Origin: Bacteroidota bacterium
GTDB lineage: Bacteria; Bacteroidota; Ignavibacteria; OLB7
Length of the DNA stretch: 64,000 bases
Direction: 5' to 3'
Assembly: GCA_018266795.1 (NCBI GenBank)
Contig: JAFDZV010000013.1
Coordinates: forward strand, 124,001-188,000
Shown here: positions 28,995 through 36,082 of the stretch, one piece after another
Layout of the letters: every line of letters starts with the position of its first letter
Numbering within the stretch: position 1 is the first letter of the stretch
Notes under the pieces: model-generated
The model's input: only the letters and a program-made list of their open reading frames with translations
What the model was told of the DNA's origin: nothing
The model's database searches: none
Program-made: the position numbers and the translations under genes

Positions 28995-29780
28995 CTACTC
29001 TCCCTTGAACACCGGCTTGCGCTTCTCCACGAACGACTGCACCCCTTCGGTGTAGTCGCCGGTGCGCCCGGCAGCCTCCTGCATGAACACCTCGTAGTCC
29101 AGTGCCTCGTCAAGCGAGGTGGCGCCGGCGCGATAGAGCATCTTCTTGATGTATCCGTACGCGCGCGTGGGTCCGGCGGCATAGCGGGCGGCGAGCGCAC
29201 GCGCCTCCTCCATCAGCGTCTCGGCCGGAACAACCTTGTTCACCAGGCCGAGTTCCAGCGCCTGCGGTGCGAAGATCTTCTCCCCGAGCGTTGCAATCTC
29301 GAAGGCGCGCGCGTAGCCAACCATGCGCGCAAGGAAGTAGGACGATCCGGAGTCCGGCACCAGGCCGATGTTGATGAACGCCTGCAGCAGATAGGAACTT
29401 TCGGCGGCGATGCGGGCATCGCACGCAAGCGCCAGCGAGCATCCGGCTCCGGCCGCCGCACCATTCAGCGCAGCAACAATCGGCTTGGGCATGCCGGTAA
29501 GCCTGCGGATGATGGGGTTGTAGCGTCGCTGCAGCGAATCCGAGAGGGAGCGCCGCGTGCCGGGCGCCGGCGCATCCTTCAGATCCTGACCGGAACAGAA
29601 CGCCTTGCCGGCTCCGGTAAGAATGAGTGCGCGTACGGCCGGGTCGCGCTCGGCGTTCCTCAACGCCTCCTGCAGATCGGTGGTGAGCTGCTCGTTGCAG
29701 GCGTTGTAGCTCTCCGGCCGGTTCAGCGTGATCGTGAGCACGCCGCCGTCGAGTTCGTAGAGAAGGGTATCGAATGCCAT
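28995..29780 (-). CDS. paaG: PaaG-like enoyl-CoA hydratase/isomerase
   Basis: A 261-aa crotonase closest in motif pattern to PaaG, which isomerises the ring-epoxide of phenylacetyl-CoA to the oxepin. The pattern FCSGQDLKDAP, then YNPIIRRLTGMPKPIVAALNGAAAGAGCSLALACD, INIGLVPDSGSSYFLARM and a catalytic Asp in LVPDSG is as in PaaG. It lies between the second crotonase and hbd, with gaps of 67 and 75 bases. No paaABCDE oxygenase or paaK is in the window, so involvement in aerobic phenylacetate degradation is suggested but incomplete; general beta-oxidation isomerase function is the alternative. Confidence 0.85.
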   Translation of the reverse strand: MAFDTLLYELDGGVLTITLNRPESYNACNEQLTTDLQEALRNAERDPAVRALILTGAGKAFCSGQDLKDAPAPGTRRSLSDSLQRRYNPIIRRLTGMPKPIVAALNGAAAGAGCSLALACDARIAAESSYLLQAFINIGLVPDSGSSYFLARMVGYARAFEIATLGEKIFAPQALELGLVNKVVPAETLMEEARALAARYAAGPTRAYGYIKKMLYRAGATSLDEALDYEVFMQEAAGRTGDYTEGVQSFVEKRKPVFKGE

Positions 29781-29847
29781 CTGAGAGATAGAGAATCGTT
29801 GTTCAAAGTGGCCATCGTCGCGGATTCCGGGAGTGTGCGCAACGCGC

Positions 29848-30621
29848 TCAGCGTCCCTTCCACTCAGGCTTCCTCTTTTCCAGGAACGCAGCCATCCCCT
29901 CCTTCATATCGTCCGTGTCGAAGAGGAGATAGAAGTTCTTGCGTTCGAATTCCAACCCGTCGTTCACCGTGGTATCGAACGACTTCAGCACGGACTCCTT
30001 CGCAAGGCGCACGGCGATCGGCGGGCGGGCGGCCACTTCGCGCGCAAGCTTCATTGCCGACTCCAGATAGAACTCCACCGGAACGATCATGTTGATCAGC
30101 CCGCCTGCCTTCGCCTCCTCCGCGGTGATCATCCTGCCGGTGAGAACCATCTCCATCGCGAGCGCCTTCCCCACGGCACGCGTCAGCCGCTGCGTTCCGC
30201 CGGCTCCCGGCATTACGCCGATGTTGATCTCCGGCTGCCCGAAGCGGGCGGTCTCACTTGCAACAATCATATCGCAGATCATCACCAGCTCGCAGCCGCC
30301 ACCGAGCGCAACGCCGGAGACAGCCGCGATGAGCGGCGTCTTCACGCGGCGGATGCGGTCCCAGCGCGTGAACTGGTCGCGCTGAAGCATCTCGGTTGGC
30401 GATGCCGCAGCCATCTCCGTGATGTCCGCGCCGGCGGCGAAGGCACGCTCGCTCCCGTGGATCACGATGCAGCGCACGTCCGGATTCGCGTCGAGCGTCT
30501 CCAGGGCCTCAACCAGTTCAACCATCAGCTCGAGGTTGAGCGCATTCAATACCTTCGGGCGGTTCAACTGCACCGTGGCGATGAATCCCTCGTGGGTTGT
30601 GACAACAATGTTCTCGGGCAT
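29848..30621 (-). CDS. Enoyl-CoA hydratase (PaaF/crotonase type)
   Basis: A 257-aa enoyl-CoA hydratase. It shows the canonical crotonase pattern: LNRPKVLNALN, GSERAFAAGADITEM (oxyanion hole), GVALGGGCELVMICDMIVAS with the first catalytic Glu in GGGCEL, and QPEINIGVMPGAGGTQRLTRAVGK with the second catalytic Glu. Both glutamates are present, so true hydratase activity is expected. ATG 30621 (MPENIVV) was chosen; the frame to 30666 adds 15 non-conserved residues. It is the first gene of the paaG-hbd-HAD operon. A strong terminator separates it from the sigma-factor operon upstream. Confidence 0.92.
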   Translation of the reverse strand: MPENIVVTTHEGFIATVQLNRPKVLNALNLELMVELVEALETLDANPDVRCIVIHGSERAFAAGADITEMAAASPTEMLQRDQFTRWDRIRRVKTPLIAAVSGVALGGGCELVMICDMIVASETARFGQPEINIGVMPGAGGTQRLTRAVGKALAMEMVLTGRMITAEEAKAGGLINMIVPVEFYLESAMKLAREVAARPPIAVRLAKESVLKSFDTTVNDGLEFERKNFYLLFDTDDMKEGMAAFLEKRKPEWKGR

Positions 30622-30743
30622 ACAGGAAGGCGTTTGCTGGATGCGGAGCGGGAAGCCTCGCAGCATGTACCGGCGCGTGGGCCCGGGTCCCGCAACGAAG
30701 GAGGCGAAGTTACGAATCTCCGATCAATGCCGTTGAAACGGCG

Positions 30744-30770
30744 AAGGCTCCGGCAAAGATCCGGAGCCTT
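30744..30770 (-). terminator. Terminator of the sigma/surface-protein operon
   Basis: A perfect 10-bp stem (30744-30753 with 30761-30770, arm AAGGCTCCGG), a 7-base loop, then CGCCGTTTCAACG on the minus strand. It lies 30 bases past the stop of the T9SS IgGFc-like gene. Confidence 0.75.
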
Positions 30771-30798
30771 CCGATGTACACGAGATGTTCGCGGACAA

Positions 30799-33153
30799 CT
30801 ATCTCACAAGAGTCGCGCTGCGCACGCTGCGATTGCCACCATCGGTGAGAACCACGAAGTAGACTCCCGACGGAAGCAGCATGCCGGTACCGTCGGCGCC
30901 GGACCATTCAACGGAGGTGCGGCCGGCAAGCGACTCGCCGTTCATCCGCGCGACGGTATGGCCCACCGGATCGGTGATCACCATCTGCGCATCCCGCCCC
31001 AGCGGCCGCGCAAAGCCGATCTGCATCACTCCGGAGGATGGGTTCGGCACGATGGACATCTTCAACTGCGAAGCCCCCTCATCGAACGCGACGCCGGCAG
31101 CCGGCGACACTTCGATCCGCAGAGGAACCGTGATCGGCGAGGAGTCCGCAACGATCGTGAGCGTGGTTGTGTAGATGCCCACGCTGGCAGCCGCGTCCAC
31201 ATCGATGGTGAGCGCTATCTGATCGTGGCTCGCGATGGTATACGGCAGGCCGCTGTCGAACGAGGTCCGGATGTAGTTCTTGGCATTGCCGGTTCCGGCA
31301 TCGAAGTGGGAGATCATGGCGCTGTTGCCGCAATCGTTGGCGCGGATGATCAGACTGTCGCGCTTTGCCTTGCCGTACGTGGTCTGGATCACGATCGCCG
31401 AGCGATCGGCGTACGCGGTCTTCAGGCAGACGCCGTCGGAGAGCTTCACCGTGTCGATGTTGCCGCTCCGGTCGCTCAACGCCGCGAAGAGCGGGCCGCT
31501 GGGATCGGCGGTGGTCTGGAAGGTCACGTCGGCAATGGCATCGGGAGACGGAGCCTGGAACGGCGTGGCAAGCTTCCAGCCGGGGCTCTGCACCACTTCC
31601 ACGGCGGCAATGCCGCTGTAGTACCCTCCGGTGCTGTCGCTGATGCGAGCCGTGAGCCGCGTGCGGTCGGCCGTCGGTACGGTGGTAACCAGATAGGGCG
31701 CACGCACGTCGGCATCGATTCTCGGAACCCAGAACGGAAGCGGGAACGCATAGAAGTCGCCAAGCAATCCGCTGTTGCCGGCAATCACACCGGTGAACGG
31801 ATAGCCCTCCGGCGAGGAGAGCACATGCCCGCCAGCGGAGACGGTAACGCGTGCATAGAAGTAGTCGCCGTTCAAATGCTGCCACACGGCACCGGCAAGC
31901 GGATGGCCGTCCAGCGTGATGGCACGGATCGGGTTGGCGTCGTCCGATGCCTGCAATGCTCCGTTCCCCTTTGCCACCAGCGTCAGCATGTGCACGCTGA
32001 GCGGGTTGATGCCGATCATGTCGGGGGCAACGAACGGAGAAAACGTTGTCATGCGGCCGGCCGGAGCAACCGGAAGCATCATCGGGGCGTTGGCCGCATC
32101 GCCGTACGCGCCGCTGGTGCGCAGCTGCGTGAGAATCACGGGCGCGGTGGCGGACCAGTGCACGGGACCATTGATCGGCTTGCCGCCGATGGTGGAAGCA
32201 TCGAACATGGTGCCACGGTCCAGATTGACCGTTGCCTTCTGCGTGCTCCCATCCGGCGCGAAGCAGGTGATATCCACCCTGGTGCCGTCGAACGCGGACG
32301 TCATGCGGAAACGATCGGGAGTGCCGGGATTCAGCGGCACGGTGTAATACTCCTGCCCCCAGAGCGAGTCCGGAAGAAGCATCGTGCTGAGATGCGTTGC
32401 CCACTGGTCCAGCGGCATCGTGCCGTTGGCGGTAACCGGTGCACCAACATGACCGCTCACAACACCGATCGGCCGGTTGGCGTGAATCTCCGAGACGCTC
32501 AGGTCCGCAACGCCGACATCACCCGAATGCGCCTGCACCAGGAAGCTCTCCCCCCTGTTCAGCGGCACCGGAATCTCCTGGCCCACATCGCTGTTGATGG
32601 TGCGCGCCTTCGGCGTGATGCGAACGATGGTGTTATCCTCCGATGCGATCACCATGAACTCGCCTACGCGATCGCCGTCGGCGTTCGGCAACGTCATCGG
32701 CAGATAGCCGGTGCGCCACAACTCCACCGGCATCGCTGCATAGCTGCCGCTGGATTGATAGCGGGCATTGATGGCGAAGACCGAGACCGGCGCGCGCGAG
32801 GTTACATGCACGGTCTGCATCGGCGTCTCCTCGCTGAACACCATCTCGCGCGCACGGGGAACCTCAACCGTGATGAACCCGCCAGGCTGCACGAAGAAAC
32901 GCTGCAGCGGCGCTCCGGGAATCTCCACATCCACGCTGGTGGATACCTGCGAGGTGATCATCATCCCCATGAACTTCTGTGCGGCACGGCTGTCCTCGTT
33001 CTGCATGAACGCAACGTAGTACTCGGTGCCCGGCTGCGCCTGCACGCCGCTCTCCTGAGCCTGCACATTCACAACGCGCATGCCGAACAGAAGAGCCGTT
33101 GCCAGCAACGCCCAACCGATCCTGCGATGTAGTCTGGTCATTGTATATCTCAT
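30799..33153 (-). CDS. IgGFc-binding-like surface protein with T9SS sorting domain
   Basis: A 784-aa secreted protein. The signal peptide covers about residues 1-32. An IgGFc-binding-protein N-terminal-like domain follows (GTEYYVAFMQNED, FFVQPGGFITVEVP, VFAINARYQSSGSYAAMPVEL, FMVIASEDNTIVRITPK, IGVVSGHVG), then Ig-like segments. The last about 80 residues are a T9SS type A sorting domain (IVPNPSSGVMQIGF, LPSGVYFVVLTDGG, ending SATLVR). GGAAAGAG lies about 6 bases before ATG 33153. It is the last gene of the operon with the ECF sigma factor, the anti-sigma/barrel hybrid and a lipoprotein. The binding partner is unknown; the domain name does not show antibody binding here. A long antisense open frame crosses the locus and is a shadow. 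Confidence 0.85.
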   Translation of the reverse strand: MRYTMTRLHRRIGWALLATALLFGMRVVNVQAQESGVQAQPGTEYYVAFMQNEDSRAAQKFMGMMITSQVSTSVDVEIPGAPLQRFFVQPGGFITVEVPRAREMVFSEETPMQTVHVTSRAPVSVFAINARYQSSGSYAAMPVELWRTGYLPMTLPNADGDRVGEFMVIASEDNTIVRITPKARTINSDVGQEIPVPLNRGESFLVQAHSGDVGVADLSVSEIHANRPIGVVSGHVGAPVTANGTMPLDQWATHLSTMLLPDSLWGQEYYTVPLNPGTPDRFRMTSAFDGTRVDITCFAPDGSTQKATVNLDRGTMFDASTIGGKPINGPVHWSATAPVILTQLRTSGAYGDAANAPMMLPVAPAGRMTTFSPFVAPDMIGINPLSVHMLTLVAKGNGALQASDDANPIRAITLDGHPLAGAVWQHLNGDYFYARVTVSAGGHVLSSPEGYPFTGVIAGNSGLLGDFYAFPLPFWVPRIDADVRAPYLVTTVPTADRTRLTARISDSTGGYYSGIAAVEVVQSPGWKLATPFQAPSPDAIADVTFQTTADPSGPLFAALSDRSGNIDTVKLSDGVCLKTAYADRSAIVIQTTYGKAKRDSLIIRANDCGNSAMISHFDAGTGNAKNYIRTSFDSGLPYTIASHDQIALTIDVDAAASVGIYTTTLTIVADSSPITVPLRIEVSPAAGVAFDEGASQLKMSIVPNPSSGVMQIGFARPLGRDAQMVITDPVGHTVARMNGESLAGRTSVEWSGADGTGMLLPSGVYFVVLTDGGNRSVRSATLVR

Positions 33154-33173
33154 TGAATCTCTTTCCAGAAATC

Positions 33174-33872
33174 TCAGTTCAGACTCGCCTTCTGCCGATT
33201 CACAAGGGTCCAGCGCTCCTCTATGCCGGTGTACAGAGGGCTCGTAGCATCCCGCCTCGTGGCCGTCTGCCGAACCATCCGAACCGGTCCGTATCCCTGA
33301 GCATACCAGCAGGTCCATGACCACGTCTTCGTCGGCCCGATGCGATCCTCCTCCTTCTTCGGAGCGTATTCCACCACGATCACGTTCGAATACACCGTGC
33401 CGCCGATGTTCTGGTACAGATTGCGCTCGGTGATCCTGGCCTGCCACGTGGCCTGCATCGAGTCATCGAAGGCGCAGTCCCACGTTCGCCCCGTGTCCAC
33501 CGGCGTGGTAAGCGCATAGCGAACGGGCACGATTCCGCTGGCCGTGAAGAGTGTATCCGGTGTGGGGCGGTAGAGACGAAGCGTGGACGTGTTCCCCTGC
33601 CGAAGCACGGACATGGAGTAGGAGCCGGCCATGATGGTGGAATCCAGCACCACGGCACGCACTGTGAGCGTATCCGGTGCGGAGTTCAGGTTCTCCTCCC
33701 TCATGTAGACAAGCGTATCGGCAACCGAGGTTGGCCATGAGAAGGAGGCCACGTTCTGCCACATGGACTCGTCGGGGCCGGTGGTGCCGCACGATGCGGC
33801 GCCCAGCGCTGCCAGAAGAGCCAGACCACAGAGGGTACGATATGTGTTGATCCGAATGTTCATCACCATCAT
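33174..33872 (-). CDS. Lipoprotein in sigma-factor operon
   Basis: The 232-aa product has a lipoprotein signal (hydrophobic GLALLAALGAASC, lipobox AASC, Cys28). The mature chain is rich in Thr and aromatic residues, with paired strands and a C-terminal stretch of conserved-looking Trp residues (TKTWSWTCWYAQGYGPVRMV) in a DUF-like beta fold. No family was recognised. It lies 17 bases after the anti-sigma/barrel gene and 20 before the T9SS IgGFc-like gene, so it is co-expressed and likely acts with them at the outer membrane. ATG 33872 is the first of several nearby Met codons (residues 1, 2 and 4). Confidence 0.75.
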   Translation of the reverse strand: MMVMNIRINTYRTLCGLALLAALGAASCGTTGPDESMWQNVASFSWPTSVADTLVYMREENLNSAPDTLTVRAVVLDSTIMAGSYSMSVLRQGNTSTLRLYRPTPDTLFTASGIVPVRYALTTPVDTGRTWDCAFDDSMQATWQARITERNLYQNIGGTVYSNVIVVEYAPKKEEDRIGPTKTWSWTCWYAQGYGPVRMVRQTATRRDATSPLYTGIEERWTLVNRQKASLN

Positions 33873-33889
33873 TCCAGAACCACTCTCTG

Positions 33890-35449
33890 CTAGAGATGGA
33901 ACAGCACGCCCCAGCGCAATTCGAAGAAGTCGCCCTTGAATGCAGACTTGTAGGTATCATCCACCCTGTCGCCATCGTGTGAAAGGTCGATGGAGGAAAG
34001 ACTCACGCCGTACCTGTACTGGCTGTATCCAACACCCACGTGCACGCCGATCCGATCGGCCACGAAGCCGATCAGCGAGACGTTCCCCCCCGCCTGTGTA
34101 TGCATCGTCGAGCCTCCGAACGTTCCCTCCAGGTTCACCGCGATGCCGCGGCTTATCGGAAGCCGGTAGTTCGCATAGACCTCGGCAACGCCGATCTGCT
34201 TCGCCTCACCGACCATCGTATTGACGCTCGAGCTCCCTTCGCTCACCGGCTTCATCGACTGGTGCAACATGTTGCCGAAGCCCAGGCGCGCGCCAAGCCC
34301 CACGCTGCCGCCGAAGAATCGGTAGCTGACATCGATGTGCGGATCGGAAAGCGTCGTGTTCGAACCGAGCGGAATGCTGGAGCGGTTGAAGCGCCCGAGC
34401 AGATGGCCGAAGCCGACCTCGAAACCGTTGGAGGTAAGCGCCGAGGCGTGTCCCTGATTCTCATCGAGCGGCGACTGTGTGTTGCTGCTGGAGAGAGCCC
34501 TGGTGACTTCCTCCGGCGTAAGCGGGCGGCCACCATTCTCACCGAGCGGCGACTGTGCGTTGCCGCTGGAGAGAGCTCTGGTAACTTCCTCCGGCGTGAG
34601 CGGACGGGCATCAATCCGGCCGGCTTCGTTCGCCTGCGATGTATCCTTACGCTGGGCATCAGGCTGCTCCAGGTGCTGTACGCCGGAACCCAGGCCGAGC
34701 GAAGAATTGTGGTCCGGCAGGTTCGTGGCCGGGTCCGTGAGACCGTTCTGGGCGGCCGTGCGGGAACCGTTCAGCCCATTGCGAGCGGCAGCATCGTTGC
34801 CTGCCGCATCGTTGGCAGAAGCGCCATTGGCGGGAACACTGTTGGGGAAAACGCTGTTGGCCGGCGCCGTGGCAGCGGCAGGCCGGCGGGTCAGCGCTGC
34901 CGGATTGTCGGACGAGGCCGTGCCGTCTGCAGCATCGGCCAGATTGAGAGCACGATGATCGGAGGCGTTACGCGAGACGTTGGAGCGGATGCCGGCATTC
35001 GCCGCAAGCGCCGGCGACTGCTGGGCCGGCGGGACCACAACCGGAACAACGGCCACCAGCGGAAGGCGCGGTGCCGCGGGCGCGGAGGCGGTGGCCGGCG
35101 CAGAACCGGAATCGCCGGAGCCGGTGGAGAGGTGTGTGGTGCCGAGGATGTAGCCCACAACGCCGGCAAGCACGAAAAGGAGGGGCTTGACAACCCATCC
35201 GATCGTGTAACCGCTTCCCGCTCCGGACGCAGCAACTCCCACCCCACTGATCGCACCCCAGATGGCGGCGTCTTCGTCGTTGGTGAGGTTGCTGGCAAGC
35301 CTGTCGGCCCGCAGCGCCCCCTGCAACGCGATGTGGCGCTGGAAGTCGGTGCGCCGCTCCGGGCTCACCGACAGGCCGTGAAAGAGCTCCGCCGCCCGCT
35401 CGTCCGTGAGCGAGCCATCGAAAAGCTCCTGGATATCGTTCGTCATCAT
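33890..35449 (-). CDS. Anti-sigma-like inner-membrane/outer-membrane barrel hybrid
   Basis: A 519-aa protein with an unusual build. Residues 1-60 are cytoplasmic, helical and resemble short anti-sigma N termini (MMTNDIQELFDGSLTDERAAELF). A transmembrane helix lies at about 85-104 (VVKPLLFVLAGVVGYILG). A long Ala/Asn/Pro-rich, disordered linker runs from about 108 to 335, including two 26-residue repeats (RPLTPEEVTRALSS). A barrel-like domain (about 340-519) has alternating strands and ends in FELRWGVLFHL. The gene is immediately downstream of the ECF sigma gene, as anti-sigma factors usually are. If both ends insert, one chain spans both membranes. The function as anti-sigma is inferred from position and layout. 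Confidence 0.7.
   Translation of the reverse strand: MMTNDIQELFDGSLTDERAAELFHGLSVSPERRTDFQRHIALQGALRADRLASNLTNDEDAAIWGAISGVGVAASGAGSGYTIGWVVKPLLFVLAGVVGYILGTTHLSTGSGDSGSAPATASAPAAPRLPLVAVVPVVVPPAQQSPALAANAGIRSNVSRNASDHRALNLADAADGTASSDNPAALTRRPAAATAPANSVFPNSVPANGASANDAAGNDAAARNGLNGSRTAAQNGLTDPATNLPDHNSSLGLGSGVQHLEQPDAQRKDTSQANEAGRIDARPLTPEEVTRALSSGNAQSPLGENGGRPLTPEEVTRALSSSNTQSPLDENQGHASALTSNGFEVGFGHLLGRFNRSSIPLGSNTTLSDPHIDVSYRFFGGSVGLGARLGFGNMLHQSMKPVSEGSSSVNTMVGEAKQIGVAEVYANYRLPISRGIAVNLEGTFGGSTMHTQAGGNVSLIGFVADRIGVHVGVGYSQYRYGVSLSSIDLSHDGDRVDDTYKSAFKGDFFELRWGVLFHL
34452..34607 (-). repeat. Two tandem 78-bp repeats inside anti-sigma/barrel gene
   Basis: Two direct copies (34452-34529 and 34530-34607) encode near-identical 26-residue units carrying RPLTPEEVTRALSS. 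They differ by a few bases, mostly silent, indicating an old but still conserved duplication. Confidence 0.8.
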
Positions 35450-35497
35450 CGTTATCTCAGCGTCTATCGTATGGCGATACGTTATTGACTTTCATTG

Positions 35498-36082
35498 TCA
35501 CGACCCGCGCAGGTCGTCGAGGCCCCAGGAGAGGCGTTCGCGAAGTATCTCGCGCGCCTTGAAGATCCTGAACTTCACGGTGGACATCGCCTGCCCGGTG
35601 ATGTTCACGATCTCCTGGTACGACCTCCCCTCGTATTCACGCAGCACGAGCGCCTCCCGATAGATCTCCGGAAGGCGCGCGATCTCACTGGCAAGCTGCT
35701 CCTGCAACGCAACATCGTGGTCGGCACCAGCCATTCCACTGTATGCGGCAGATTCATCGAAGCTGGTGTGGTCCTTGGAATCGCGGCGCGCGTTCAGACA
35801 GAGATTGCGTGCTATCGTATGCACCCACCCGGCGAAGTTCGTGCCGGGAATGAAGCGTTCGCGGTTTGTATGGACCCTGATGAAAACCTCCTGCAGTATG
35901 TCCTTCGCGGCATCACGATCGTTCACCATGCGCAGGCAGTAGATGAAGAGCTGCGTCTTGTAGCGATCGTAGAGTACACGGAAGGCCTTCCGGTCCTCCT
36001 TGCGGACGCGCTTCATCAGCTCATCGTCGGAGAGAGTCGTCTCGTCCGATTGCCGTCGTATGAACACGTCAGTAAGAGTCAC
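35498..36082 (-). CDS. ECF-type RNA polymerase sigma factor
   Basis: A 194-aa extracytoplasmic-function sigma factor. Region 2 (about residues 18-85) has AFRVLYDRYKTQLFIYCLRMVNDR, DAAKDILQEVFIRVH and the promoter-melting/-10-binding FAGWVHTIARNLCLNARRD. Region 4 (about 130-185) has RLPEIYREALVLREYEGRSYQEIV, ITGQAMSTVKFRIFKAREIL, the -35 helix-turn-helix. It is the first gene of a four-gene operon with the anti-sigma/barrel hybrid, a lipoprotein and a T9SS surface protein, and likely regulates that operon in response to an envelope signal. Confidence 0.95.
   Translation of the reverse strand: MTLTDVFIRRQSDETTLSDDELMKRVRKEDRKAFRVLYDRYKTQLFIYCLRMVNDRDAAKDILQEVFIRVHTNRERFIPGTNFAGWVHTIARNLCLNARRDSKDHTSFDESAAYSGMAGADHDVALQEQLASEIARLPEIYREALVLREYEGRSYQEIVNITGQAMSTVKFRIFKAREILRERLSWGLDDLRGS

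Follow-up and report, generated by a model that had tools for sequence, protein, structure and literature searches.

We analysed a 64,000-nucleotide stretch of DNA (hereafter the window; G000:C4:124001-188000, contig JAFDZV010000013.1 of assembly GCA_018266795.1) from a bacterium placed in the Ignavibacteria (Bacteroidota), whose genome comprises 5.97 Mb in 71 contigs. The window carries a four-gene operon, with all genes on the minus strand, in which an extracytoplasmic function (ECF) sigma factor is followed by a 519-amino-acid protein with a barrel-like C terminus, a lipoprotein and an IgGFc_binding-domain protein. The sigma factor (36082-35498; 194 amino acids, GTG start) matches Sigma70_r2 (6.9e-16) and Sigma70_r4_2 (1.4e-12) in Pfam. 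The second gene (35449-33890), which has orthologues in four related genomes (G001-G004), encodes a predicted anti-sigma factor that, in its AlphaFold2 model, has the parts needed to bridge the inner and outer membranes. An earlier note on this DNA, made from its letters alone, had proposed this operon and a bridging role for its second product; the open reading frames were as it had described.

Predicted architecture of the 519-residue protein

In the AlphaFold2 model, which was built with 22 sequences, residues 1-72 (35449-35234) form a four-helix anti-sigma-like domain that is predicted to be cytoplasmic (helices 2-11, 16-28, 30-53 and 57-72), with a predicted local distance difference test score (pLDDT) of ~80-91 up to residue 50. 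A single inner-membrane helix follows at residues 87-108 (35191-35126), and the hydropathy peak lies at 83-101. Residues 109-335 (35125-34445) are predicted to be a disordered periplasmic tether, since pLDDT was below 50 over most of 102-331; these ~230 disordered residues agree with the linker of roughly 225 residues read from the sequence before. The tandem repeats noticed in that linker are real: two copies of a 26-amino-acid unit (RPLTPEEVTRALSS...) lie at its C-terminal end (34607-34457; Tandem Repeats Finder period 78 nt, 1.9 copies, 90% match), each with one short helix in the model (286-294 and 312-321). Finally, residues 342-519 (34426-33893) are predicted to form an eight-stranded outer-membrane beta-barrel, with all strands within 342-518 and pLDDT in the strand blocks of up to 92-94. 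The predicted template modelling score of the whole model was 0.40, a low value that is expected because half of the protein is disordered.

The fold of the C-terminal domain pointed to the outer membrane. Foldseek matched the window barrel to OmpA, NspA and Ail (E 6e-5 to 4e-4), and alignment with VIA-align gave Z 16.1 against OprF (4rlc; root-mean-square deviation (rmsd) 2.3 over 122), Z 15.2 against NspA (1p4t; rmsd 2.6 over 138) and Z 15.1 against OmpW (2f1t; rmsd 3.5 over 153). By this measure outer-membrane barrels, with OmpA, NspA, OprF and OmpW as the best PDB matches, scored Z 15-16, whereas natural soluble barrels, for example PsbO and avidin, scored ~10 (maximum 10.7). When the profile of the 22-row alignment was compared with PDB sequences, nothing was found (best E 0.35). 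A homologue with 17% identity has the same predicted layout (helical N domain, one membrane helix, disorder and eight strands between 261 and 417), and Foldseek matched its barrel to OmpA and NspA (E 2e-7 to 4e-6). None of the homologues modelled or aligned had a soluble C-terminal domain. Both structural checks named in the earlier note, for a barrel within residues 340-519 and for a soluble domain in homologues, thus came out in its favour. The architecture of one helix, a long disordered tether and a C-terminal barrel is therefore present, as modelled, in both the window protein and a distant homologue. The earlier note was mistaken in one detail: the protein ends not in an aromatic residue but in Leu (FHL). 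Across 22 homologues the last residue was F in 19, L in two and W in one, with endings of FHF, FQF, FRF or YRF.

The N domain is probably a sigma-binding anti-sigma domain of the RseA-like kind, judging from its relatives. Two anti-sigma domains were matched among the homologues, RseA_N in 6 of 22 (E up to 1, best 1.9e-4) and zf-HC2 in 3 of 22, and RseA_N gave no match for the window protein. In addition, two short proteins (L153 and L155) have the same N domain without a barrel and adjoin sigma factors of the same clade, which supports reading the domain as an anti-sigma domain.

Conservation of the operon and its paralogues

We next considered a family made up of the window genome (G000) and G001-G004, and related loci that were located with a profile from a 7-row alignment. 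Full-length orthologues of the 519-residue protein were present in all four of the other family genomes, with ~27-33% overall identity. Pairwise identity between four genomes was 52% for the N domain, 33% for the barrel and 17% for the tether. With membrane-helix ends placed by a simple hydropathy rule, the tether spanned 117-240 residues in 22 homologues; it was never short and its sequence was unconserved. Such a length would allow the tether to cross the periplasm if extended. The sigma/barrel pairing recurs in related genomes, as an ECF sigma gene lay directly upstream of the barrel fusion at 20 of 20 homologue loci examined. Because orthologues occur in all four other family genomes and the same architecture is found across the class, the arrangement reflects more than chance. 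Within the class, 52 of 149 genomes matched the whole-protein profile, with up to nine matches each; since the profile also matches barrel-less proteins, the count is an upper bound within this sample.

The gene order of sigma factor, barrel fusion, lipoprotein and IgGFc protein was kept in all five family genomes. The third gene (33872-33174; 232 amino acids) encodes a predicted lipoprotein, in line with the earlier reading, since inspection showed a hydrophobic stretch followed by AASC with Cys at residue 28. At more distant loci the third gene was again a lipoprotein gene and was detectably related in most (family hidden Markov model (HMM) 5e-13 to 2e-6). In one group (L098-L101), the third gene encodes an unrelated lipoprotein type and the fourth a VWA-domain protein with a tail like those of the type IX secretion system (T9SS); therefore, operon partners vary while the layout is kept. 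The fourth gene of the window operon (33153, or 33141, to 30799) encodes an exported protein with an IgGFc_binding domain (PF17517, 1.2e-39) and a FlgD_ig/T9SS-like tail, and its orthologue is at the same place in 5/5 family genomes. The IgGFc-like nature claimed for this protein was clear. Its T9SS export was less so, as the tail of the window copy reached neither of the two Pfam cut-offs of 27 (24.2 for FlgD_ig and 17.3 for Por_Secre_tail), although the orthologue in a sister genome exceeded the FlgD_ig cut-off (30.6 of 27). The window genome also encodes SprA.

A strong hairpin 3′ of the fourth gene (30771-30743, minus strand; -22.5 kcal/mol, z -3.57, unmatched in 200 shuffles) lacks a T run and probably marks the end of the operon. 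Beyond it, two enoyl-CoA-hydratase-like genes (minus strand, 28995-30666) were judged by inspection to be a separate unit. A plus-strand open reading frame of 1,099 amino acids opposite the IgGFc gene (29833-33132) was rejected as a GC-rich mirror frame that is probably no gene, and the same applies to a 482-amino-acid open frame opposite the anti-sigma gene.

The nearest named relatives were metagenome genomes labelled Chlorobiota, Kapaibacterium, Ignavibacteria and Bacteroidetes, and NCBI places Kapaibacterium in the Bacteroidota. None of the papers searched joined Kapabacteria and anti-sigma. The operon of one locus labelled Armatimonadetes (L084, JADZEY010000127.1) is almost the same as the one at L083, in a genome from the same genus that is labelled Chlorobiota, and the Armatimonadetes label is probably wrong.

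The window genome has several such systems. Among 32 sigma loci examined in it, at least seven ECF-linked proteins, each encoded directly behind the sigma gene, had a barrel-like C terminus, namely the window protein and the paralogues at L140, L141, L144, L145, L146 and L147. The N-domain profile matched all six paralogues (L140 weakly), and the family barrel profile matched five (7e-12 to 2e-6). The sixth, L147 (G000:C15), is the longest of these paralogues at 749 amino acids; its tether is predicted to span several hundred residues and its C-terminal part was unmatched by the barrel profile. In a sigma tree, the window sigma factor fell within one clade of 26 (support 94/94) that comprised 24 barrel-paired sigmas and two with short anti-sigmas. 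Two barrel-type sigmas of the window genome (L145 and L147) lay outside the clade, and an approximately unbiased (AU) test did not reject joining them to it (p 0.147). Separately, two other ECF-sigma-adjacent proteins with a single membrane helix end in a T9SS sorting domain (G000:C49, L157:1961-3376:-; G000:C43, L160:1931-3538:-), with Por_Secre_tail matches of 3.5e-8 (above the cut-off) and 7.3e-6 (just below), and their sigmas are a pair of their own (100/100). A putative anti-sigma whose distal end bears a secretion signal would offer a different route to the surface.

A conserved promoter motif and its predicted regulon

A motif shaped like an ECF promoter, CTAACAAA-N12/13-GTGTTA (an AAC core, ~15 nt and then GTGTTA), was present upstream of the sigma gene in 5/5 family genomes. 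The window contains one copy, the predicted operon promoter CTAACAAA-N12-GTGTTA (36222-36197, minus strand), ~115 nt upstream of the sigma start codon and at the same place in all five genomes; no copy arose in 100 shuffles. The five genomes (3-6 Mb) contain 22 copies in total, with 2-6 per genome, compared with 0, 0, 0, 0 and 2 copies of a backward control pattern. The spacer bases differ between genera.

As the motif was derived from the operon, the five copies that precede it are not independent evidence, and only the copies elsewhere are. Six of the 22 precede genes for one family of exported proteins of ~1,450 amino acids (the cargo gene); each of the five genomes has such a site, and the window genome has two. 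Two complete copies of this protein were tested, and in both the matches to FlgD_ig and to a T9SS type A sorting signal exceeded the Pfam/NCBIfam cut-offs; both copies in the window genome run off contig ends. Five further copies precede an exported protein family of the genus of G003 and G004 (with FG-GAP repeats in the copy tested), and three precede a rhodanese-domain protein. The remaining three, all in G002 (C65, C91 and C107; L192, L199 and L202), have no clear target, and one adjoins a masked stretch. Chance was rejected as the origin of the motif, because each of the five genomes has it again in front of the cargo gene; the per-genome chances for one named gene multiply to ~5e-20, before correction for gene choice and shared descent. 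Since the motif occurs at the operon and at surface-protein genes, we predict that the system is autoregulated and controls surface proteins. The window sigma factor itself probably reads the motif.

Relation to known systems and a proposed mechanism

The founding study of the Dma1/Das1 pair is reportedly that of Pardue (2024, PNAS e2321910121). Dma1, Dma2 and Dma3 of B. thetaiotaomicron have the same architecture as the window protein and are dual membrane-spanning anti-sigma proteins, a type stated to be confined to Bacteroidota, with three studied in Bacteroides (PMC13088901). As in Dma1/Das1 and Dma2/Das2, an N-terminal anti-sigma domain is followed by one membrane helix, a long disordered tether and a C-terminal beta-barrel, with the sigma gene directly upstream. 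The dma2 operon likewise has a lipoprotein-like third gene, but the lipoproteins are of a different kind (there a DUF4943 protein). Using DUF4943, to which the published third gene belongs, we found Dma2-type operons in Bacteroidia genomes, and two of these (L107 and L108) consist of the sigma gene, the barrel fusion, the DUF4943 gene and further genes.

Given this shared architecture and gene order, the window protein might be a very diverged true Dma homologue and not an independent assembly. This is a question of origin, and is compatible with a bridging mechanism. The barrels offer some support, with marginal HMM matches to Bacteroidia Dma-type proteins (0.004-0.02), but their hhalign probability was only 3.9%. 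The Das2-like sigmas fell outside the clade of 26, placing the window sigma outside their branch, yet not firmly, because joining them to the clade was not clearly rejected (AU p 0.058). The N domains differ more: the anti-sigma part is a four-helix RseA-like domain of ~72 amino acids here and ~45 amino acids with a W-x-x-L motif there, and the N-domain HMM had no match in Bacteroidia Dma-type sequences (hhalign probability 0.2%), although few Dma sequences were compared and distant homology is possible. The Dma family is further marked by partner sigmas of group ECF21 and by increased vesicle production upon loss. The predicted targets here are exported T9SS-type surface proteins. On balance, we regard common descent with Dma as a serious possibility that is somewhat disfavoured. 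As homology of the N domain to the Dma type was not found and the sigma placement is not firm, we have not filed the protein in the Dma family; it probably works like a Dma protein, as a separate and widespread version of a known design.

Other systems share parts of this design. The E. coli RseA/sigma-E system resembles it in the RseA_N matches of the homologues, in the single inner-membrane helix and, as a precedent, in using the state of the outer membrane as a signal. However, RseA ends in the periplasm without a barrel, and the outer-membrane signal arrives via other proteins. FecR-type cell-surface signalling likewise runs from an outer-membrane barrel through an inner-membrane anti-sigma to an ECF sigma factor, with the barrel provided by a TonB-dependent receptor that is a protein of its own (PMC9249621). 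In the window operon the anti-sigma and an eight-strand barrel are fused in one chain, and no separate TonB-dependent receptor was found among the four operon genes. A further case is the Phocaeicola vulgatus pair M0N98_03761/03760, a sigma/anti-sigma pair induced by the toxin BcpT, in which the anti-sigma is predicted to cross the periplasm and to carry a barrel in the outer membrane, the sigma gene is upstream and induced, and the signal is probably envelope stress (PMC9308784). Unlike the window pair, it belongs to the Bacteroidales and its regulon affects O-antigen length (PMC9308784).

Together, we consider it likely that the products of the operon include an ECF sigma factor and a single-chain anti-sigma that bridges the cytoplasm to the outer membrane, such that a change in surface state would free the sigma factor to act on the motif promoters. 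The genes, their order, their sequence conservation and the motif with its positions are direct observations, and the fold and topology are predicted by modelling; sigma binding, the reading of the motif by this sigma, the signal and the release step are our inference. At rest, the N domain would hold the sigma factor at the inner membrane while the barrel sits in the outer membrane. The trigger would be an outer-membrane or surface change, for example if barrel assembly fails or is altered, or if the operon lipoprotein relays a change. Release would most likely be proteolytic, with cuts in the tether and the membrane helix, and the window genome encodes an RseP-like M50 protease. The freed sigma factor would then act on the operon itself and on genes for large exported surface proteins, either one or a few. 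That the state of the outer membrane or surface may be relayed directly to the sigma factor was the central idea of the earlier note. It gains support because the Bacteroides and Phocaeicola design is experimentally tied to sigma control (PMC13088901, PMC9308784), and because the conserved motif appears to link the window sigma to exported surface proteins.

Several observations weigh against this account. The 519-residue protein had no match in Pfam or NCBIfam, and the fold-search matches cover the barrel alone. The positive-inside bias was weak (in 22 proteins, 23 K/R precede the helix and 13 follow it) and, as counted, absent from the helix flanks of the window protein itself. The motif is missing at one cargo orthologue (G004:C77). 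Barrel insertion, binding of the sigma factor and cleavage are predicted steps, and the model offers no route by which a chain anchored in the inner membrane would reach the beta-barrel assembly machine.

The barrel might instead be an anchor that positions the tether and is itself unchanged by the signal, with the lipoprotein or another envelope protein as the sensor. The conservation of the third-gene lipoprotein with the sigma/anti-sigma pair, and the lipoprotein-like third gene of dma2, are consistent with this. However, the barrel is conserved between genera well above the tether, and the barrel-less anti-sigmas at L153 and L155 indicate that basic function in this clade does not need a barrel, so we find a purely anchoring role rather unlikely. 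Less likely still, the exported barrel may be severed from the anti-sigma half in the inner membrane, leaving two halves that act apart and no bridging molecule. An RseP-like protease is available, and a long, disordered, repeat-bearing tether would be easily cut, but the fusion is kept across the class with a tether of never less than ~117 residues, and the split into two genes that would be expected in some lineages was seen in none of the loci examined. Finally, an outer-membrane protein with an odd, non-binding N-terminal anchor and a fortuitous sigma neighbour, which the missing Pfam match might suggest, is highly improbable in view of the anti-sigma domain matches in homologues, the sigma neighbour at every locus examined and the same domain in short proteins beside same-clade sigmas.

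The bridging anti-sigma design itself is already known from Bacteroides and P. vulgatus. New here are the number of ECF-linked barrel proteins in one genome, the conserved third-gene lipoprotein and a promoter motif with predicted targets. More speculatively, this may be a second, independently assembled bridging class that joins an RseA-like domain to an OmpA-like barrel and has multiplied within the class, giving at least seven parallel lines here; the insertion state of the barrel, possibly via the C-terminal F-x-F/Y-x-F strand upon failed assembly, would trigger cleavage of the protein and so control T9SS cargo. The design is common, with several copies per genome, in a line other than Bacteroides, and its anti-sigma domain may have been independently recruited; such recruitment would mean that the design has more than one origin and represents a general solution. 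The conserved motif provides a concrete predicted regulon with an easy readout, which makes the signal of the barrel testable. A single protein in contact with the outer membrane at one end and a sigma factor at the other would remove all intermediates from surface-to-gene signalling.

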